Notes under the pieces: generated by a model
The model's database searches: none
Seen by the model: only the letters and a program-made list of their open reading frames with translations
What the model was told of the DNA's origin: nothing
Shown: positions 14,995 through 33,220 of the stretch, piece by piece
Layout of the letters: every line of letters starts with the position of its first letter
Numbering within the stretch: position 1 is the stretch's first letter
Position numbers and translations under genes: made by a program
From: Prauserella alba
GTDB lineage: Bacteria > Actinomycetota > Actinomycetes > Mycobacteriales > Pseudonocardiaceae
NCBI RefSeq assembly: GCF_024171735.1
Contig: NZ_JAMTCH010000004.1
Location: forward strand, 496,001 to 560,000
Length of the DNA stretch: 64,000 bases
Reading direction: 5' to 3'

Positions 14995-17166
14995 TCACTC
15001 GTAGATCTCGCCCTTCTCGGCCTTGGCGACCAGCGAGGCCGGCGGCTCGAAGTGGTTGCCGTAGCGCGCGGCGAGCTCCCTGGAGCGCGCCACGAAGCCC
15101 TGCAGACCACCCTCGTAGCCGTTGATGTACTGGATCACACCACCGGTCCACGGCGGGAAGCCGATGCCCATGATCGAGCCGATGTTGGCGTCCTCGACGG
15201 TGTTGAGCACGCCCTCGTCGAAGCACTTCACGGTCTCCAGCGCCTCGGCGAAGAGCATGCGCTCCTTGAGGTCCTCGAACGGAACGTCGCCGCTTCCGCT
15301 GTCGAAGGCCTCCCGCAGGCCCGGCCACAGCTGTGTCCGGTTGCCCTCGTCGTCGTACTCGTAGAAACCCGACCCCGTCGAACGGCCCTTGCGGTCGAAC
15401 TCGTCGATCATCCGGTCGATGATCGCCTCCGACGGGTGGGCGTCCCACGTACCGCCTGCGGCCTCGATGGCCTCCTTGGTCTCGACCCGGATCTTGCGCG
15501 GCAACGTGAGCGTCAGCTCGTCCATCAGCTGCAGCGGCGGCGCCGGGTAGCCGGCCTGCGAACCGGCCTGCTCGATGGTGGCCGGCTCGACACCCTCACC
15601 GAGCGCGGCCACGGCCTCGGCGATGAACGTGCCGATGACCCGCGAGGTGAAGAAGCCCCGGCTGTCGTTCACCACGATCGGCGTCTTCTTGATCTGCAGC
15701 GTGTAGTCGAAGACCTTCGCCAGCGTGGCGTCGGAGGTCTTCTCACCGCGGATGATCTCCACGAGCGGCATCTTGTCGACCGGCGAGAAGAAGTGGATGC
15801 CGATGAAGTCCTCCTGCCGCTGCACGCCCTCGGCCAGGCCGGTGATGGGCAGCGTGGAGGTGTTGGAGCCGAGCACGGCGTCGGGGTTGACGACGTCCTC
15901 GATCTCCTGGAACACCTTGTGCTTGAGTTCGGTGCTCTCGAACACGGCCTCGATGACGAAGTCGACGCCCTTCAGGTCGGCCGGGTCGGCCGTCGGTGTG
16001 ATGCGGCCGAGCAGCGCGTCGGACTTCTCCTGCGTGGTCTTGCCCCGCTTGAGCGCCTTCTCCTCGAGCTTGGCCGCGTAGCCCTTGCCCTTCTCGGCGT
16101 TCTCCTGCGAGACGTCCTTGAGGACCACGTCGATGCCGGCCTTCGCCGACACGTAGGCGATGGCGGCACCCATCATGCCCGCGCCGAGCACGCCGACCTT
16201 CTTGGCCTGGTACTGCTCGTGGCCGTCGGGGCGCGATTCTCCTGCATTGATGGCCTGCAGGTCGAAGAAGAACGCCTTGGTCATGTTCTTCGCGACCTGG
16301 CCGGTGACGAGGCTGACGAAGTAGCGGGTCTCGATCAGACTCGCCGTGTCGACGTCGACCTGCGCGCCCTCGACGGCGGCGGACAGGATGGCACGCGGCG
16401 CCGGCATGGGCGCGCCCTTGAGCTGCTTGCGCAGGTTCGCGGGGAACGCGGGCAGGTTGGCGGCGAACTTCGGGTTCGACGGGCTGCCGCCCGGGATCTT
16501 GAAGCCCTTCTGGTCCCACGGCTGCACGCCGCCCTCGGGGTTCTCCTTGATCCACGCCTTGGCCTTCGGCAGCAGTTCGTCCACGCTGGACACCAGCTCG
16601 TCCACGAGGCCGAGCTCCAGTGCCTTGGCGGGCCGGTGCCGCTGACCCTGCACGAGGACGTTCATGATGGCGCTCTGGATGCCGAGCAGGCGGACCGTGC
16701 GCACGATGCCGCCGCCGCCGGGCAGCAGGCCCAGCGACACCTCGGGCAGGCCGATGGCCGTGCCCTTGACATCGGCGACGATCCGGCGGTGGCAGGCCAG
16801 CGCGATCTCCAGGCCGCCGCCGAGCGCCGCACCGTTGACGGCGGCGACGACGGGCTTGCCCAGCGTCTCGAGCCGGCGCAGCTGCCCCTTCAGTTCGTTG
16901 CTCGCTTCCGTGATCTCGGCGGCGTCGTCGGGCGTCGCCTTGATCAGGTCGTTCAGGTCTCCGCCCGCGAAGAACGTCTTCTTCGCCGAGGTCAGCACGA
17001 CACCGGTGATGGAGTCCTTCTCGGACTCGAGACGGTCGAGCACGACGCCCATCGACTCGCGGTAGTCCGCGTTCATCGTGTTGGCCGACTGCTTGGGGTC
17101 GTCCATCGTCAGGGTGACGATGCCGTCGGAGTCCTGCTCCCAGCGGATGGTCTTGGCTTCAGTCAT
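14995..17166 (-). CDS. fadB: FadB-type multifunctional enoyl-CoA hydratase / 3-hydroxyacyl-CoA dehydrogenase
   Basis: 723-residue beta-oxidation protein joining two activities. Residues about 1-190 are the crotonase (hydratase) domain with FFAGGDLNDL and NGAALGGGLEIALACH oxyanion-hole and catalytic regions. From about 310 the NAD-binding GVLGAGMMGAAIAYVSAKAG begins the 3-hydroxyacyl-CoA dehydrogenase, with catalytic His in GIHFFSPVDKMPLVEI and the NDSRGFFTSRV signature. The C-terminal helical domain follows. It acts on fatty acyl-CoA in the cytosol with the thiolase encoded 16 bp upstream. ATG 17166 fits the start of the hydratase fold. Probably one operon with fadA, driven from the promoter near 18460. 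Confidence 0.92.
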   Translation of the reverse strand: MTEAKTIRWEQDSDGIVTLTMDDPKQSANTMNADYRESMGVVLDRLESEKDSITGVVLTSAKKTFFAGGDLNDLIKATPDDAAEITEASNELKGQLRRLETLGKPVVAAVNGAALGGGLEIALACHRRIVADVKGTAIGLPEVSLGLLPGGGGIVRTVRLLGIQSAIMNVLVQGQRHRPAKALELGLVDELVSSVDELLPKAKAWIKENPEGGVQPWDQKGFKIPGGSPSNPKFAANLPAFPANLRKQLKGAPMPAPRAILSAAVEGAQVDVDTASLIETRYFVSLVTGQVAKNMTKAFFFDLQAINAGESRPDGHEQYQAKKVGVLGAGMMGAAIAYVSAKAGIDVVLKDVSQENAEKGKGYAAKLEEKALKRGKTTQEKSDALLGRITPTADPADLKGVDFVIEAVFESTELKHKVFQEIEDVVNPDAVLGSNTSTLPITGLAEGVQRQEDFIGIHFFSPVDKMPLVEIIRGEKTSDATLAKVFDYTLQIKKTPIVVNDSRGFFTSRVIGTFIAEAVAALGEGVEPATIEQAGSQAGYPAPPLQLMDELTLTLPRKIRVETKEAIEAAGGTWDAHPSEAIIDRMIDEFDRKGRSTGSGFYEYDDEGNRTQLWPGLREAFDSGSGDVPFEDLKERMLFAEALETVKCFDEGVLNTVEDANIGSIMGIGFPPWTGGVIQYINGYEGGLQGFVARSRELAARYGNHFEPPASLVAKAEKGEIYE

Positions 17167-20177: not shown

Positions 20178-21509
20178 GTGGCTCGACAGAATCCGCAGCA
20201 GGGGCGCGACGCCATGGGCCTCGGCCTCGCCGCGCTGAACCGGCTGGCAGGAAGCAAGCTGATCGACCGCGCGGGGCTGCGCAAGCCCGTGGAGGGTCTC
20301 GTCTCGTCGGCCACCCGTGCCGGCTTCCAGGCGGTGGGCGCGGCCAACCGCACGTTCAAGGCGACGACGCGGCTCGGCAAGCCGGCGCGCCTCGAAAAGG
20401 CTCCCGAGGCCTCGCTGTTCGACCTCGAACCGACCGACGAGCAGCAGATGATCGTCGAGACGGTCGACGAGTTCGCGGCGGAACAGCTGCGGCCCGCGGC
20501 GGCCGAGGCCGACGACAAGCTCGCGCCCCCGGACGGCCTGCTGGGCAGGGCCGCCGAACTCGGCGTGACGCAGATCGGCATCCCCGAGGAGCTCGGCGGT
20601 GTCGGCTCGGAGCGGTCGGTCGTCACCAACGCGCTGGTGGCCGAGTCGCTGGCCCACGGTGACATGGGGCTGGCCGTGGCGGTGCTCGCGCCGTCGGCGG
20701 TGAGCAACACGCTCGTGCAGTGGGGCGACGCCGACCAGCAGGCGACCTACGTTCCCGCGTTCGCGGGTGAGCATGTGCCGGCCGCGGCGCTGGCGCTGCA
20801 GGAGCGCACCCCGCTGTTCGATCCGTTCACCCCGAGGACCCGCGCGAAGCGCACCCCGAACGGCTACCGGCTGGACGGCGTGAAATCGCTCGTGCCGCGC
20901 GGCGCGGACGCCGAACTGTTCGTCATCTCGGCCGACCTCGAAGGCCGCGGTCCCGCATTGTTCATCGTCGAGGCGGCCACCGCGGGCGTGTCGGTGGAAG
21001 CCGAGCCGGCGATGGGCCTGCGCAGCGCCGCGACGGCGCAGCTCGTGCTCAACAACGTGACGCTGCCCGCGGGCGCGCTGCTGGGCGGCGGCAGCCGCGA
21101 GGTGTTCGCCGACGTCGTGCGCCTGTCCCGGATCGGCTGGGCGGCGCTCGCGTGCGGCACGGGCAAGGCGGTGCTCGACTACGTCGTCCCGTACGTCAAC
21201 GAGCGTGAAGCGTTCGGCGAGCCGATCAGCCACCGCCAGGGGGTGGCGTTCCAGGTGTCGGACATCGCGATCGAGCTGGAGAGCATGCGGCTGACGATGT
21301 TGCGTGCCGCCTCCCGGGCCGAGCAGGGCAGGCCCTACGCCCGCGAGGTCGCACTGGCCCGCAAACTCGCGACGGACAAGGGCATGCAGATCGGCAGCGC
21401 GGGCGTGCAGCTGCTCGGCGGGCACGGCTTCATCAAGGAGCACCCCGTGGAGCGCTGGTACCGCGACCTGCGCGCGATCGGCGCCGTCGACGGCATCGTT
21501 CTCCTGTAG
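20178..21509 (+). CDS. Acyl-CoA dehydrogenase, FadE24-like partner subunit
   Basis: 443-residue flavoprotein of the acyl-CoA dehydrogenase family with an unusual N-terminal extension of about 75 residues before the first helical domain (FDLEPTDEQQMIVETVDEFAAEQL). The middle and C-terminal domains are recognisable (ALQERTPLFDPF, FGEPISHRQGVAFQVSDIAIELE, LGGHGFIKEHPVERWYRDLR). The C-terminus stops at AIGAVDGIVLL and lacks the EGT loop carrying the usual catalytic Glu. Order, length and a second fadE directly behind resemble mycobacterial fadE24-fadE23. GTG 20178 is preferred because GAAGGGG (20165-20171) is 6 bp before it; ATG 20172 would touch that site. Confidence 0.85.
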   Translation: MARQNPQQGRDAMGLGLAALNRLAGSKLIDRAGLRKPVEGLVSSATRAGFQAVGAANRTFKATTRLGKPARLEKAPEASLFDLEPTDEQQMIVETVDEFAAEQLRPAAAEADDKLAPPDGLLGRAAELGVTQIGIPEELGGVGSERSVVTNALVAESLAHGDMGLAVAVLAPSAVSNTLVQWGDADQQATYVPAFAGEHVPAAALALQERTPLFDPFTPRTRAKRTPNGYRLDGVKSLVPRGADAELFVISADLEGRGPALFIVEAATAGVSVEAEPAMGLRSAATAQLVLNNVTLPAGALLGGGSREVFADVVRLSRIGWAALACGTGKAVLDYVVPYVNEREAFGEPISHRQGVAFQVSDIAIELESMRLTMLRAASRAEQGRPYAREVALARKLATDKGMQIGSAGVQLLGGHGFIKEHPVERWYRDLRAIGAVDGIVLL

Positions 21510-21531
21510 AGCAGCGCAGAAAGGGCTTGCT

Positions 21532-22740
21532 GTGATCAACCTCGAGATCCCCAAGAAGGCCAAGGCGCTGGTCAACCAGGCGCACCAGGCGGCAGCGGAA
21601 GTGTTCCGCCCGAATTCGCGGAAGTACGACCGTGCCGAGCACGCGTATCCTACCGAGCTGGATATGTTGGCGTCCCTGTTGGACGGTCTGAATTCGTCCG
21701 GTGAGGGCGGCGCCGGCGCCTCCGGGGTACGCAAGGACGACGGCGACGACGACAGGGGCAACCGCAACGGCGGCAACCTGTCCACCGTGCTCGGCGCGAT
21801 CGAGATGTGCTGGGGCGACGTGGCGCTGCTGCTGTCGATGCCCAGGCAGGGCCTCGGCAACGCGGCGATCGCGTCGGTGGCGAACGACGAGCAGCTCGAG
21901 CGGTTCAAGGGCAAGTGGGCCGCGATGGCGATCACGGAGCCGAGCTTCGGTTCCGACTCGGCGGCGGTGAGTGCGACCGCGGAACTCGACGGCGACGAGT
22001 ACGTCATCAACGGTGAGAAGATCTTCGTGACCGCGGGTGAGCGGGCGGACTGCGTCGTCGTGTGGGCCTCGTTGGACCGGTCGAAGGGCCGCGCGGCGAT
22101 CAAGTCGTTCGTCGTCGAGAAGGGCACGCCGGGCTTCGAAGTGGTGCGGTTGGAGCACAAACTCGGCATCCGCGCCTCGGACACGGCCGTGCTGCGGTTC
22201 GACAACTGCCGTGTTCCCAAGGAGAACCTGCTCGGCAGCCCGGAGATCGACACGAAGACGGGTTTCGCGGGGGTCATGCAGACCTTCGACAACACCCGAC
22301 CCATGGTCGCTGCGATGGCGGTCGGCGTCGCGCGGGCTGCGTTGGAGGAGACCCGGCGTGTGCTCGAGGACGCAGGCGTCGACATCGACTACGACAAGCC
22401 CGCGAACGCCCAGAGTGCCGCAGCCGCCACGTTCCTCCAGTTGGAGGCCGATTACGAAGCGGCCTACCTGCTCACCCTCGAATCGGCGTGGATGGCCGAC
22501 AACCGCAAGCCGAATTCACTGCAGGCCTCGATGGCCAAGGCCAAGGCGGGACGGTCCGGTGTGGACATCACGCTGCGGTGCGTCGAGCTCGCCGGCGTGT
22601 ACGGCTACACGGAGGAGTCGCTGCTCGAGAAATGGAGCCGTGACGCGAAGATCCTCGACATCTTCGAAGGCACCCAGCAGATCCAGCAGCTCATCATCGC
22701 CCGGCGCCTGCTCGGCAAGTCCAGCGCCGAACTGAAGTAG
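21532..22740 (+). CDS. Acyl-CoA dehydrogenase, FadE23-like
   Basis: 402-residue acyl-CoA dehydrogenase that introduces the trans-2 double bond into acyl-CoA using FAD. ITEPSFGSDSAAVSATAE and GEKIFVTAGERAD form the FAD/acyl-binding middle domain. KWSRDAKILDIFEGTQQIQQLIIARRL at the end includes the Glu found at the catalytic position in many family members. A low-complexity loop rich in Gly/Asp/Asn (about residues 57-80) replaces part of the N-terminal domain. GTG 21532 lies 22 bp after the previous gene, with AAAGGG upstream. The tight pairing suggests a mixed complex of the two FadE proteins. Confidence 0.88.
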   Translation: MINLEIPKKAKALVNQAHQAAAEVFRPNSRKYDRAEHAYPTELDMLASLLDGLNSSGEGGAGASGVRKDDGDDDRGNRNGGNLSTVLGAIEMCWGDVALLLSMPRQGLGNAAIASVANDEQLERFKGKWAAMAITEPSFGSDSAAVSATAELDGDEYVINGEKIFVTAGERADCVVVWASLDRSKGRAAIKSFVVEKGTPGFEVVRLEHKLGIRASDTAVLRFDNCRVPKENLLGSPEIDTKTGFAGVMQTFDNTRPMVAAMAVGVARAALEETRRVLEDAGVDIDYDKPANAQSAAAATFLQLEADYEAAYLLTLESAWMADNRKPNSLQASMAKAKAGRSGVDITLRCVELAGVYGYTEESLLEKWSRDAKILDIFEGTQQIQQLIIARRLLGKSSAELK

Positions 22741-22747
22741 GTTGTGG

Positions 22748-22803
22748 AACAAGGGAAACAGCCCGTCGACTGTGTTGCGCAGTGAGCGGGCGGTTTCCTT
22801 GTT
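22748..22803. terminator. Bidirectional terminator between fadE and the foreign gene
   Basis: AACAAGGGAAACAGCCCG (22748-22765) pairs with CGGGCGGTTTCCTTGTT (22787-22803) with one bulge and one mismatch. It is AT-richer than local DNA, ends in a short T stretch on one strand and starts with A on the other, and sits between convergent genes. Confidence 0.75.
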
Positions 22804-22868
22804 TGCCAACTTCCTGTGCTAGCTAGTATCGCGTGTCGTTAGTTTCTGAACAGAATAGTTGCGCCCGC

Positions 22869-24512
22869 CTACTTCGCTTTCGGTTTAGGCCCGTAGGGAA
22901 TATCAGCGAATTTTAGGTCAACATTCGGAGGCAACGCGTTGGCAAACCTTAACAGGTTGATTTGCGACATTGCGAACAGATCGCGCGCCTTCCATTTGCG
23001 CCCACCGCAGGCGAGGACTACGGTTGACGGTACCCCCTTAGGAATTATCCTACCTTTCGAACTCTGGTTCAGCTGACTAGTCAGCCATTCCATTGCAGCA
23101 GGTTCATACGTTAACGCGCTAATAGATGCTTCAGCTTGCGCAATAAGATGACTTAATGAAGACGCACTACCGAGCCATTTAACATGTACGAGTTCATGCG
23201 AGCTCGTGTAAATATCACACAACTCAATCTTTGGATTTTGCGTCGTCTTTGCAAATTTTGCGTCCAAACAGACCGCACCAAGCCTCTCGGCGGCCAGTTT
23301 ATTATAAGAATTTTCGTCACTATCCTGGCCAGACCCATTCCATAACGGAAATTCAACGTCATACTTGTTTTCAAGGAGACGACTTACTTCATCTCGAATC
23401 TGGTCAACGTAATTTTCGCCGATCTGATACCAACTGCCCGATCGGAGAATATATCGGTGGTTCCCTATGGTTTTCTCGAAGTAAAGCCACTTCAGCGCGC
23501 TCGTGGTGCCTCGCACCTTCTCCGTACCTGTGCTATCGGAATAGGCCTGGATGGAACCCGTTCGCAGCGAGTCGTAGACATCATGCTCATCCAGCCGGCC
23601 AATCCTACCTTTGATCTCCTCCAACAACTCATCTACCTTGATCAGCATCGGCCCGCTTCCCGCTAAGCGAAGGACCTTAACCGACATCAATTCGTCCGAG
23701 GATTCAGCCAACTCAAGCGGCGTCCCCTGGGCAACAGACTTGCTTGCTTTGCTCTTAAGCGAACGAACGAGAGCTGTTTGCAGTTTAGGCAGCATCGGGT
23801 GTCCCGACTTTATGGGGCGCACCGCGGTTACAGACCGCAGTGAATTGTCCGGAGTAGGACTGTCTACGACTCGTGATATAGCATCCAAATCGCTACGCAT
23901 GCCATCAAATTGGCGTGCCACCGGGACCCTTAATGAATCTAGCCCCGAGATTATCCTGTCCTTTTTTGTTTTGCGTGATTTTCCATAGGTCAAATCTGAG
24001 AGGTCCGCGCTTCCTCGAAGACGGCCGACGATTTCACCAAATCTTGCAACGCCGTACTTCCCGACATCAGCCCCACCAGGATAGGAAATTTGCGCCGTAC
24101 GCGCAGAAGAATCTAGCGAGTGCAGCGTCATGGCGCCAATGTGAAATTCATCGAGCCTTCTGATCGCAAACGCCAAGCCGAACCCCGGATCCGCACGCGT
24201 CTCCCGATCAAGCATCAAGTACCCGTCGCCCCAGGTAAGTGCGTAGACCCACTTCCCTTCATCGATTAGCAAAACCGCGAAAGGGGACATTCTCGGCAAC
24301 GAGAGCGACAGGCCGGTGAGGTCTCTTGCGTGGCTAACCCACTGCGGCTCATGCGTTTCAAGATGACCATAACGAATTAAGCACGAAACACCATCTTGTT
24401 CGAGTTCCTGGTCGCTCGAACGAACTTGGTCATCAGGCTCCAGGAGGTACTCTGCGAGTGAAAGGCCACCCTGTAAGCGATAGACAGACACCTCGCGATC
24501 GTTCGATGCCAT
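22869..24512 (-). CDS. TIGR04141/DUF6119-like sporadically distributed protein
   Basis: 547-residue protein with base composition unlike the window: sampled lines are 43-48% GC against about 70% around it, with many AT-rich codons. This indicates recent horizontal transfer. The C-terminal third contains KIELCDIYTSSHELVHVKW (428-446) followed by SSLSHLIAQAEAS, which I recognise as the hallmark of the TIGR04141/DUF6119 family of sporadically distributed proteins. No activity is established. The E/D...H-V-K spacing resembles some PD-(D/E)xK nucleases, so a DNA-acting defence role is conceivable, but this is inference. No signal peptide or membrane helix. It is a lone gene with no obvious partner. 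Confidence 0.7.
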   Translation of the reverse strand: MASNDREVSVYRLQGGLSLAEYLLEPDDQVRSSDQELEQDGVSCLIRYGHLETHEPQWVSHARDLTGLSLSLPRMSPFAVLLIDEGKWVYALTWGDGYLMLDRETRADPGFGLAFAIRRLDEFHIGAMTLHSLDSSARTAQISYPGGADVGKYGVARFGEIVGRLRGSADLSDLTYGKSRKTKKDRIISGLDSLRVPVARQFDGMRSDLDAISRVVDSPTPDNSLRSVTAVRPIKSGHPMLPKLQTALVRSLKSKASKSVAQGTPLELAESSDELMSVKVLRLAGSGPMLIKVDELLEEIKGRIGRLDEHDVYDSLRTGSIQAYSDSTGTEKVRGTTSALKWLYFEKTIGNHRYILRSGSWYQIGENYVDQIRDEVSRLLENKYDVEFPLWNGSGQDSDENSYNKLAAERLGAVCLDAKFAKTTQNPKIELCDIYTSSHELVHVKWLGSASSLSHLIAQAEASISALTYEPAAMEWLTSQLNQSSKGRIIPKGVPSTVVLACGGRKWKARDLFAMSQINLLRFANALPPNVDLKFADIPYGPKPKAK

Positions 24513-24857
24513 CAGCCGCTAGCTCCGATCTTTTGCACTGCCGAACTTGGCTCTGTGGGATCAAGGCGCGCCGCCGTCGGCGGCGCGCACGTCGGCTTCC
24601 GAGCCCGTCGCCGGGCTGCGGTCCGCACCCACCCCGGCACGCCGGGCTCCCGCTCCGCTCCGCCCGGCGACCGGTCGGTGCGGACCGCAGCGCCCGGCAC
24701 AGGTCGGCGGCCGCCAGCGGCGCGCATGTCGACGTCGACCATCAGACCCCCTCAAAGTCTCTGTCAGGGCCGTCGGCCGACTCGGACCGCTCGTTACCGT
24801 CCGCCTCTACTCCGTCACCGGATCGTGACAACGGCCGGTGACACGGCGCCAAGGGCC
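24513..24857. other. Gene-free, hairpin-rich junction beside the foreign gene
   Basis: No gene is seen. GCTGCGGTCCGCACC (24615-24629) pairs perfectly with GGTGCGGACCGCAGC (24677-24691), and GCCGGGC continues the stem after a 2-nt bulge. GTCACCGG/CCGGTGAC (24814-24842) forms a smaller hairpin. Base composition returns from about 48% to over 70% GC here. The region separates the foreign gene from a serine-hydrolase gene that loses its 3' half at 24858, so it probably marks a recombination junction. Confidence 0.5.
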
Positions 24858-25433
24858 CTACCGGCGCCACAGCGCGGTGAGAGCGAGCGCCAGCAGATTG
24901 ACCCGCACGTCGTTGTAGGCCCACTCCGAGCCCGGCGCGGCGTACGTGGCCGAACCGCCGTCGCGCAGACTCTGCACATCGGCGTAGGCCGGCTTCCCCC
25001 ACAGTTGTCCGGCCCACCCGCTGGTCTGCTGGAGCAGATGGTGCCACGTCAGTTCCGGCCCGAGGTGCAGCGGCAGGTCGACCGTGGTTTCGACCGGAGC
25101 ATGCACGTCCGGAAGCAGTCCGCGGTCGAAAGCCGCACCCGCGACGGCGGACAGCACGGTCTTGGTGACCGAGAAACACATCTCGGGCCGGTCGACGTCA
25201 CCCCACTCGGCGATGATCGCGCCCCGAAAGCTCACCAGGCCGTTCGGGCCAGCACCGGGCAGCAACGGCCCGACGACCTCGCGATGCGACCGATCGGCGA
25301 CCTGCGCGGCATGAAACGCGGCCATGTTGTCGATCCCGGCCGTAGGGCGGCGCTCGGCCCGCCCGACCGCGTCGCGAAGCGCGGGAACATTCACCACCGC
25401 TCGCTCCGGCCCCACACCACGACAACGTGCCAC
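24858..25433 (-). pseudogene. Truncated beta-lactamase-family serine hydrolase
   Basis: Remnant of a class C beta-lactamase/esterase-like serine hydrolase. The nucleophile motif SVTK (MCFSVTKTVLSAVAG) and the second motif Tyr-Asn (EWAYNDVRVNLLALALTALWRR) are intact, and PNGLVSFRGAIIAEWGD is the usual entry strand. The reading frame stops directly after ALWRR, where intact relatives continue for well over 100 residues carrying the third active-site motif, so only about half of a normal 350-400-residue protein remains. The stop coincides with the edge of the hairpin-rich junction next to the foreign gene. The N-terminal start is also uncertain. Confidence 0.7.
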
Positions 25434-25996
25434 ACGACGAAACGTGCCACACCAAGGACGACGGCGACACCACGGAACCGCCCACTACTCGCTCCGGCAC
25501 CGCCCGCTCCAGCCCCGGAGCCTAAGACACCGGAGCTTCAGACACCGACGCCCCGGAAACCGGAGCCTCAGGCGAGGACAGCCGCGCCTACTTCCCTCCT
25601 GCCACCGCCCCAGCTCCGGCTGCGCCATCTCCCGCTGGGCTACTCCCACTGCGCCGTCTCGGATCACGCCGTCTCGCACTACGCGATCTCGGATCACGCC
25701 ATCTGGGCGATTCCAACGAGCGCGTACGGCGAGGTGCAGCCCGGCGCGATCGGATGATCCCTCACCACTACAACCGCGCAACGACAGCCGCGCACCCCCG
25801 GCGACGGCACACTCGCGGTGGCCGACATGGGCGATTCCGATGTGCACCGGACACGGCTTGATCCCCCGCCCATTGATCCCCCGCCGATTGATCCCCGGCC
25901 GAAACCGTTCCGGTGCGTCGCACGTCTCCGACTCGATGGTCCCCGGCAGCGCGTCGAGGTCGAGCCTGTCGGCCTTCCGCCCGGGGAACGGCGAAG
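25434..25996. other. Gene-free region with short direct repeats
   Basis: No gene with credible codon use or start signals is seen. TCTCGGATCACGCC occurs at about 25657 and again about 31 bp later. A 15-bp unit resembling TTGATCCCCCGCC occurs three times in a row at 25858-25900. CCGGAGC(C/T)T is also repeated around 25515-25570. This could be decayed coding sequence. Confidence 0.5.
25858..25900. repeat. Three tandem copies of a 15-bp unit
   Basis: TTGATCCCCCGCC plus a two-base spacer occurs three times head to tail, the last copy with one change (CCCCGGCC). It is non-coding, with no recognised function, probably from slippage. Confidence 0.65.
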
Positions 25997-31431: not shown

Positions 31432-32171
31432 GCGAGCAGCCTGCCCGCACCCGGCACCGTCGCGGGCAGGCCGAGCTCGGTCAGAATGCGGTGGGTCGTC
31501 GCGGTCGCCGCCGACAACACGGGCAACCCCGCCGCGTCCTCGACCGCCTGTACCGCCGGCAAGGACGGCATCTGCACACACGCCGACACCACGAGGGCGT
31601 CTGCGTTCGACAGATCGAGCTTCTTCCAGTGCTCACGCAGGCCGGCCGGGTCCAGCCTGCCCACGGCGAGGTTGTCCGGGACTTCGAGGCTGAGCGCGTC
31701 GACGACCTCGATGCCCGCGTCCTCGATGTAGTCGGCGACCAGCTTCGTGAGCGGTTTCAGGTATGGCGTGATGATCGCGACCCGACTCGCTCCGAGTGCA
31801 CCGATGCCGTCGAGCAACGCCCCCGCGCTCGACACGACGGGAGCCTGAGCACCTTCGGCGCGCATGGCCGTGGTGATCGCGTCCTCCGCGGTGCAGTGGT
31901 AGCCCGGCCCCTGGGCCATAATCGCCACCAGGCACGCCGTGGCGACGACGTCGGGCCGCGCATCCGCCAGCTCGGCAGCCGCGCGTTCCGACTGGGCGTT
32001 CATCGCCCGCAGCTGCTCCTCGGTGACCTGCTGCATGCGCGTCCGCGCACTGTGGAACACGAAACGATCCGAGGGGTCGGCCTCCTCCCGTGCCCGCAGC
32101 ATCCGCGGGAGTTCGGTCTCCATCGTCAGGTTGGAGCTGGGAACGATGAGTCCGATGTGGTGGTCGGCCAC
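31416..32171 (-). CDS. nicE: Maleate cis-trans isomerase (last step of nicotinate degradation)
   Basis: 251-residue enzyme converting maleate to fumarate, which enters the TCA cycle. Both catalytic cysteines of the family are present: Cys80 in ATACLVAIM and Cys198 in VVSACVQMPS, and HIGLIVPSSNLTMETELPRM is the usual N-terminus. GTG 32171 is chosen because GGGAAG stands 8 bp before it; GTG 32180 is an alternative that would overlap the dioxygenase stop by 4 bp. It is the last gene of the nicotinate operon, with the dioxygenase immediately upstream. The second Cys distinguishes it from the related protein at 3926, which has Asp there. Confidence 0.9.
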   Translation of the reverse strand: MADHHIGLIVPSSNLTMETELPRMLRAREEADPSDRFVFHSARTRMQQVTEEQLRAMNAQSERAAAELADARPDVVATACLVAIMAQGPGYHCTAEDAITTAMRAEGAQAPVVSSAGALLDGIGALGASRVAIITPYLKPLTKLVADYIEDAGIEVVDALSLEVPDNLAVGRLDPAGLREHWKKLDLSNADALVVSACVQMPSLPAVQAVEDAAGLPVLSAATATTHRILTELGLPATVPGAGRLLAQTSS

Positions 32172-32176
32172 GGCGA

Positions 32177-33220
32177 TCACTTCCCGCCCGGCCGCATGTC
32201 CGAAACGACGACATCGCCGTCGACGACGATCGGCTCGTCGTCGAGGAACAGCGAGCACCCGCGCATCGGGATGTCGAAGTGACACGGGGTGTCGTTCGGC
32301 CCGCCGAGTTCGTTGTTCGGTCCGATGGAGAACATCACGTTGCCGTAGAAGCTGCGCAGCTCCATTCCCATGCCACCGGGGAACTGCGTCAACCCGTGCC
32401 ACTGTGCGCGCTCGTCGAGGCCCCATCCGACGTGCGACATGCCGTATCCGCGTGGGTCGTCGAACGACTTGATGTACGACGCGAGCAGATCCGCGTCCAG
32501 ACTCGACGCACCGTCGAGTCCGCGGATGTCGGTGATGAATCCCTTCTCGATGGTCAACTTCACCGGGTTCTGCACGTACGTGTTGAACGGCAGGAGTACG
32601 TCGCCCGGTGCGAGCACGATCGTGCCGTCGACACCGTCGTCGGCGCCTCCGGTGAACACGAAGGCGGCGGGCCAGTGGTCCCAGCGGCCGGGAGTGTCGG
32701 TGTAGCCGTACTCGGTCATCGTCGGGTAGACGCCGAGCTGGTACGTCACATCCGTCCCGTGCGGGCTCGTGATCCGCATCGTCTTGGCCTTCTTGAGGAT
32801 CTCGTCGCCGACTTCGACCCGTTCCCGCAGTTCCTTGGTCGGCATCAGCTTGGCCAGCAGCGGCGCGGGCTCGACACAGGTCAGGATCCGGGTTCCCGCG
32901 TCCTGGATCGCGAACTGTTCCTTGCTGAACAACAGGAACGTCAGGTCCACGAGCATGTCCGCCTGCTTGAGTGCGTCCACTGCAAGTGGATTGCCCGCCA
33001 GCCCTGATTCGCCGACCGCCCACGCACCCGCCGCGTCCGCCGCGTCCGGGAGCCGCATATGATAGGTGCTAGCCCCGAGCTGCTGAGCGGCGAACATGAA
33101 CGAGTCGGCGAAGTCCGCCCGTTCCGCACCGCGCGAGAGCACCGCGACGGTCTCCGCCTCGTGCACCCCGCTGAACGTGAGCTGCCGAAGGCAGATGTCG
33201 TTGAGCTGGTTCGGATTCAT
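32177..33220 (-). CDS. nicX: 2,5-dihydroxypyridine 5,6-dioxygenase
   Basis: 347-residue ring-cleaving dioxygenase with an M29 aminopeptidase-like fold, opening 2,5-dihydroxypyridine to N-formylmaleamate with O2 and Fe(II). His263 (GMSHVGW), His314 and Asp316 (TPCHFDIPM) fall where NicX of Pseudomonas has its iron ligands His265/His318/Asp320; those family positions are recalled, not computed. Identity is further supported by context: all other maleamate-pathway enzymes surround it. GGAGG lies 5 bp before ATG 33220. The gap to the upstream deformylase gene is 13 bp. Confidence 0.9.
   Translation of the reverse strand: MNPNQLNDICLRQLTFSGVHEAETVAVLSRGAERADFADSFMFAAQQLGASTYHMRLPDAADAAGAWAVGESGLAGNPLAVDALKQADMLVDLTFLLFSKEQFAIQDAGTRILTCVEPAPLLAKLMPTKELRERVEVGDEILKKAKTMRITSPHGTDVTYQLGVYPTMTEYGYTDTPGRWDHWPAAFVFTGGADDGVDGTIVLAPGDVLLPFNTYVQNPVKLTIEKGFITDIRGLDGASSLDADLLASYIKSFDDPRGYGMSHVGWGLDERAQWHGLTQFPGGMGMELRSFYGNVMFSIGPNNELGGPNDTPCHFDIPMRGCSLFLDDEPIVVDGDVVVSDMRPGGK

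Follow-up and report, generated by a model that had tools for sequence, protein, structure and literature searches.

What is the function of a solitary gene with foreign codon use that lies between metabolic genes of an actinobacterial chromosome? The question is posed by a minus-strand gene at 22869..24512 of the window, i.e. the whole stretch of 64,000 nt of Prauserella alba DNA analysed here. A first-pass annotation had called the gene TIGR04141/DUF6119-like, counted 547 residues and suggested an uncharacterised defence gene. Read from the sequence, the frame is indeed intact, starts with ATG and encodes 547 aa; a possible Shine-Dalgarno sequence (GGAG, 24523..24526, minus strand) can be read directly ~10 nt upstream. 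The family assignment holds over the full length. The protein scores 297 bits against DUF6119 (PF19614; Pfam scan, E 2.8e-88, curated cut-off 27) and 301 bits against TIGR04141 (E 9.3e-90, curated cut-off 35), with both matches spanning residues 8-527 and nearly the whole profile. Judged by both curated models it is thus a full-length DUF6119/TIGR04141 member, and since the scores lie far above both cut-offs the frame is not a chance ORF.

To our knowledge the family carries no assigned function, TIGR04141 being described as a 'sporadically distributed protein'. In the literature searched TIGR04141 is named in no paper and DUF6119 only in a plant paper. Besides DUF6119 the Pfam scan returned only a sub-threshold RecA_C match. 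Moreover no PADLOC-DB entry matched the window protein at E up to 1, and the DUF6119 family has no model in this database. The closest relative found is only ~29% identical to the window protein, which forms a deep branch inside an actinobacterial clade (support 0.99); a database scan with the window protein as sole query gave no matches, and in two broad alignments no segment was sufficiently conserved to be used in such scans.

Family members were detected in 12/396 sampled genomes of the host phylum and in 23/395 of the host class (~3-6%). They also occur in Pseudomonadota, Planctomycetota, Bacteroidales and others as well as on plasmids of Streptomyces, Vibrio, Paracoccus, Enterococcus and others, some of which are conjugative. 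None was found in 50,697 phage records, and a pattern scan of viral data yielded one IMG/VR contig. By this distribution the family is sporadic, as had been stated before, and horizontally moved. Two loci (L049 1393-2907, L051 1396-2922) hold a second, diverged subfamily of ~505 aa, in which the C-terminus is shorter and the motif shifted (VE-x-WD ... YAVK ... DQA).

The composition of the window gene is clearly anomalous, as its GC3 is 0.546 compared to 0.85-0.93 in the neighbouring genes. The GC content in the 40s given by the first-pass annotation does not hold as an average, which is 51.6%, with only some 100-bp stretches in the 30s or 40s. Host metabolic genes are located on both flanks, in line with that annotation: an acyl-CoA dehydrogenase gene on the left (21304..22740, plus strand; the ORF as listed, with the true start probably further in) and a truncated serine hydrolase (beta-lactamase-like) gene on the right (24861..25484, minus strand), followed by an oxidoreductase gene. 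The acyl-CoA dehydrogenase gene is kept in 7/7 genomes of the genus, whereas the DUF6119 gene is present in the window genome only (1/7) and absent in 6/6 relatives. Two of these (L025 and L027) carry a complete serine hydrolase gene directly after the acyl-CoA dehydrogenase gene. Identity to them ends at 22740 and returns at 24861-24865, and the serine hydrolase frame of the window ends at LTALWRR, so that compared to the complete frames ~157 C-terminal residues are gone. An insertion of ~2.1 kb (22741..24860) with loss of ~0.62-0.66 kb of the ancestral site has brought the gene and truncated the serine hydrolase gene. At the insertion site we observed neither an integrase or tRNA nor a clear target duplication.

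Two other relatives (L024 and L026) hold unrelated genes in place of the serine hydrolase gene, namely a short-chain dehydrogenase or a flavin amine oxidase followed by pyruvate-oxidase-like and SAICAR-synthetase-like genes, hence the site after the acyl-CoA dehydrogenase gene is variable. Within the foreign segment, just upstream of the DUF6119 gene, a stretch of up to 84% GC (24566-24725) contains 19-bp inverted repeats. Its origin from a repeat family was dismissed, as matches elsewhere in the genus extend over only 25-58 bp.

The full-length AlphaFold model of the window protein was built from 59 sequences (pLDDT 89, pTM 0.83) and served for the fold comparison of the N-terminal domain. 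Structural matches derive from a VIA search, which re-aligned Foldseek candidates only, and every Z given below is <8, a range where according to the tool a resemblance may be of a general kind. Residues 5-221 of the model match RdgC (Z 5.5 and 5.3), Iml3 (5.0), CENP-N/Chl4 (3.5-3.9) and RexA (3.4); Foldseek gives a probability of 0.99 for RdgC and of 0.93-1.0 for phage RdgC models. These proteins have been grouped as a single DNA-binding fold in the RexA crystal structure paper (PMC11077077). The N-terminal domain (residues 1-221, 23850..24512, minus strand) is predicted to share the centre and base domain of RdgC/RexA, which suggests a clamp-like DNA-binding fold of the RdgC/RexA/Iml3 type at the level of fold only. 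At the sequence level there is no Pfam RdgC match, the profile comparison yields a probability of 0.1-0.2%, and no sequence-profile link to RdgC or RexA was found. The domain is net acidic in 53/59 homologues; E. coli RdgC is net negative as well. Sliding-clamp matches of the full model had the top Foldseek E-value, yet they were discarded as noise (TM 0.07-0.10, rmsd ~20 A). In the middle region (residues 222-365, 23418..23849, minus strand) L244, P265 and W361 are invariant; no solved match was singled out for it.

The C-terminal domain (residues 366-547, 22872..23417, minus strand) was modelled alone with a pLDDT of 93. Its best 12 solved matches are FokI (two entries), OkrAI, R.BspD6I2, two CdiA-CT, EcoT38I, SduA (two), HamA, BglII and Can2, all of which we take to be of the PD-(D/E)xK type. 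FokI reaches Z 7.0 over 123 residues at 3.5 A, the other rows of the best 12 range from 5.2 to 6.1, and unrelated rows are at ~4; among the latter, matches to PLP decarboxylases were dismissed as general alpha/beta resemblance. The best solved match of the whole model is HamA (Z 5.8). The order of elements in the model also follows the alpha-beta-beta-beta-alpha-beta core of the superfamily. These results suggest a PD-(D/E)xK-like nuclease domain, though as a prediction only. Neither a sequence-profile link of the domain to HamA nor a match of the family profile in a PDB sequence search was found.

The putative active site lies in residues 400-459 (23136..23315, minus strand). E400, D417, E430, D433, K445, S454, H455 and Q459 are invariant in 59/59 aligned homologues, whereby the invariance of S454, H455 and Q459 is biased because LSHLFSQ was the search pattern that gathered the sequences. 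In an independently gathered set of 27 sequences E400, D417, E430, D433 and Q459 are likewise invariant; the conservation of K445 and H455 is almost complete. In the model, conserved acidic residues and the lysine are predicted to fall on adjacent core strands. The canonical (D/E)-x-K letters are not present: position 443, two before K445, is H in 36, L in 19 and M in 4 of the 59 homologues instead of a carboxylate. Variants of these letters are known in the PD-(D/E)xK superfamily. Given the non-canonical motif and such variants, the domain is filed as PD-(D/E)xK-like. The window copy itself departs from the near-invariant positions S450, F457, F515 and G530.

The first-pass annotation had pointed to a nuclease-like site in this region with letters and numbers that prove correct (E430-L-C-D433 ... 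H-V-K445 ... L-S-H-L). This proposal gains from the invariance of D433 and K445 and from a comparison that retrieved nucleases of the PD-(D/E)xK type in 12/12 of the best solved matches, not a fold unrelated to nucleases. Its account of the protein was incomplete in that the RdgC/RexA-like N-terminal half had been overlooked. The combination of a clamp-like front half with a PD-(D/E)xK-like back half would, as the models suggest, represent an unreported architecture.

The genomic surroundings of the relatives offer a further clue. We sampled 80 genome loci with one conserved pattern, heavy in Streptomyces and Pseudomonas; neighbour counts are approximate, as the simple ORF caller used tends to overlook genes rather than to report false ones. 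A type I subunit or type III methylase lies within 6 kb of DUF6119 in 34 of 65 non-redundant loci; about half of the loci have no restriction gene in this range. An N6 methylase is found near DUF6119 in 20/32 actinomycete loci compared to ~0.3% expected, an excess of nearly 200-fold, the expectation per 13-kb neighbourhood being a rough estimate from ~0.25 N6 methylases per Mb in the class; the nominal probability of this excess overstates its significance because of the relatedness among the loci. PADLOC scans of the neighbours agree with the restriction linkage. In several alphaproteobacteria DUF6119 lies between hsdS and hsdR, with 4-bp ATGA overlaps at both junctions in two loci (L128, L133) and at the hsdR junction in two more (L118, L119). 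In Neisseria it is flanked by an SNF2-type helicase on one side and by a DNA methylase of the type III kind on the other. In Streptomyces a divergent N6 methylase is located at a distance of 130-380 bp, in many cases accompanied by a UvrD helicase or by the remaining genes of a type I system. Annotated plasmid records show DUF6119 adjoining hsdM-hsdS-hsdR, AAA ATPases and an NB-ARC protein, others show it near an ATP-binding protein and an S8 peptidase. Taken together, the neighbourhoods strongly suggest an association of the family with restriction-modification loci. Enrichment at defence loci, an idea already raised by the first-pass annotation, is thereby substantiated for restriction-modification, and this linkage together with the absence from PADLOC-DB supports its label of an uncharacterised defence gene; a protection against phages is presumed.

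The description as a 'lone' gene applies to the window copy but not to the family, whose members are often embedded in type I restriction operons. Within the window the copy has no restriction neighbour and lies outside any hsd operon, and a PADLOC scan of 38 other window genes returned 3 generic families only.

Several further genes were seen around the relatives. Neighbours of 446-733 aa without Pfam match (L074 11856-13277, L122 8448-9785, L107 12021-14219, L095 11495-12928) are candidates for partners of DUF6119; one of them recurs in ten Streptomyces loci and one lies directly upstream of DUF6119 in alphaproteobacteria with a 4-bp overlap. A gene of ~250 aa resembling M48/YgjP-type metalloproteases is located 3' of hsdR in six alphaproteobacterial operons (L118, L119, L122, L126, L128, L131). 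On one contig (C23 of genome G409) HamA (16290-16964) and DUF6119 (31534-33060) are ~15 kb apart, suggesting a shared defence island.

We consider it fairly probable that DUF6119 is a single-protein, metal-dependent, clamp-gated DNase that serves behind restriction as a second line of defence against phages or other foreign DNA. The RdgC/RexA-like domain would probably dimerise and hold DNA as a clamp, and the C-terminal domain with E400, E430, D433 and K445 would cut once the clamp is engaged or freed from inhibition. Carried in many lineages within or next to restriction-modification loci, mainly of type I, DUF6119 would back up restriction against phages that evade or block it. The window copy moved alone into the actinobacterial chromosome and would, if active, work either by itself or together with restriction proteins from other parts of the genome; it is probably an anti-virus DNA cutter. 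While the analysis shows to which family the gene belongs, that it arrived from elsewhere, which folds are predicted, which residues are conserved and that the family is associated with restriction loci, we infer DNA binding, cutting, metal use, trigger and defence role.

The location between hsdS and hsdR, where codons overlap, and the methylase adjoining DUF6119 in Streptomyces could also be expected of an accessory restriction-modification subunit, i.e. a regulator, an alternative cutter or a partner of HsdMSR that is inert alone. The window copy would then be a stranded remnant or use unlinked hsdRSM genes. Such genes do exist: a complete hsdRSM is encoded on contig C3 of the window genome, apart from the contig of the DUF6119 gene, and a methylase 113 kb from the latter gene shares 37% identity with the one adjoining DUF6119 in Streptomyces. 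However, close homologues of this methylase occur in two genus relatives that lack DUF6119, for which reason a joint arrival of the two genes was rejected. Moreover, the many loci without a restriction gene within 6 kb and the alternation of type I, type III or no such neighbours do not point to a single conserved partner, and we regard this explanation as unlikely. The same operon slot is occupied by PrrC, a latent anticodon nuclease. By analogy DUF6119 could be a latent suicide effector: the restriction complex would restrain an indiscriminate DNase (or RNase), which is freed when a phage blocks restriction and kills the cell in a PrrC-like abortive infection. The toxin DNases of the CdiA-CT type among the fold matches of the C-terminal domain fit this idea, as does the cytotoxicity of the RexA-like Gp30 of phage Butters (PMC12894663). 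Solo copies as in the window would however have no keeper, and no antitoxin-like small gene adjoins the window copy, making this variant quite improbable. Finally, RdgC acts in recombination and UvrD-like helicase genes are located near several Streptomyces members, as might be expected of a nuclease for DNA repair or recombination instead of defence. A restriction-linked gene present in ~3-6% of genomes and in one of seven in the genus is ill-suited to housekeeping, and we hold this for very improbable.

Tentatively, DUF6119 may even constitute a new defence nuclease class that joins a RexA/RdgC-type DNA clamp to a PD-(D/E)xK-like cutter; in operons it would be under the control of type I restriction or complement it. 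If so, phages able to block or evade restriction would meet a second nuclease, and the Rex exclusion protein, long unexplained, would be linked through its fold to a nuclease effector. A defence nuclease missing from PADLOC-DB would be added and the RexA/RdgC clamp fold extended to nuclease effectors. In any case a family without assigned function is turned into a specific hypothesis, that of a DNase which combines clamp and cutter, for which individual residues can be named and which is widespread but sporadic in bacteria and repeatedly found in restriction operons.

Among known systems, Hachiman HamA resembles the C-terminal domain in fold (Z 5.8 and 5.4 to 8vxy). In contrast to DUF6119 with its H/L/M-x-K, HamA keeps E-x-K; the HamA profile (PF08878) matches neither the window protein nor anything else in the window genome, and no HamB helicase partner lies beside the window gene. 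Lambda RexA and E. coli RdgC share the predicted N-terminal fold, but neither has a nuclease domain and there is no sequence-profile similarity. The plan as a whole is closest to that of Shedu SduA, a single protein whose N-terminal clamp binds DNA ends and whose PD-(D/E)xK domain nicks nearby (PMC12904381). The window protein is likewise predicted to combine a clamp-like N-terminal with a PD-(D/E)xK-type C-terminal half (Z 5.5 to 8ps5), whereas its N-terminal half is RdgC/RexA-like and the DUF4263 profile of Shedu does not match in the Pfam scan. With regard to position, relatives of the window gene sit in the same slot inside hsd operons as TgvAB and PrrC. The window copy is not embedded in this way, and the domains differ, TgvAB being a DUF262/DUF1524 His-Me nuclease and PrrC an anticodon nuclease. 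It is this SduA-like plan combined with the operon position of TgvAB and PrrC that leads us to favour a second-line, clamp-gated DNase, and for TgvAB, embedded in type I restriction operons, a complementary phage defence is proven (PMC11411939).
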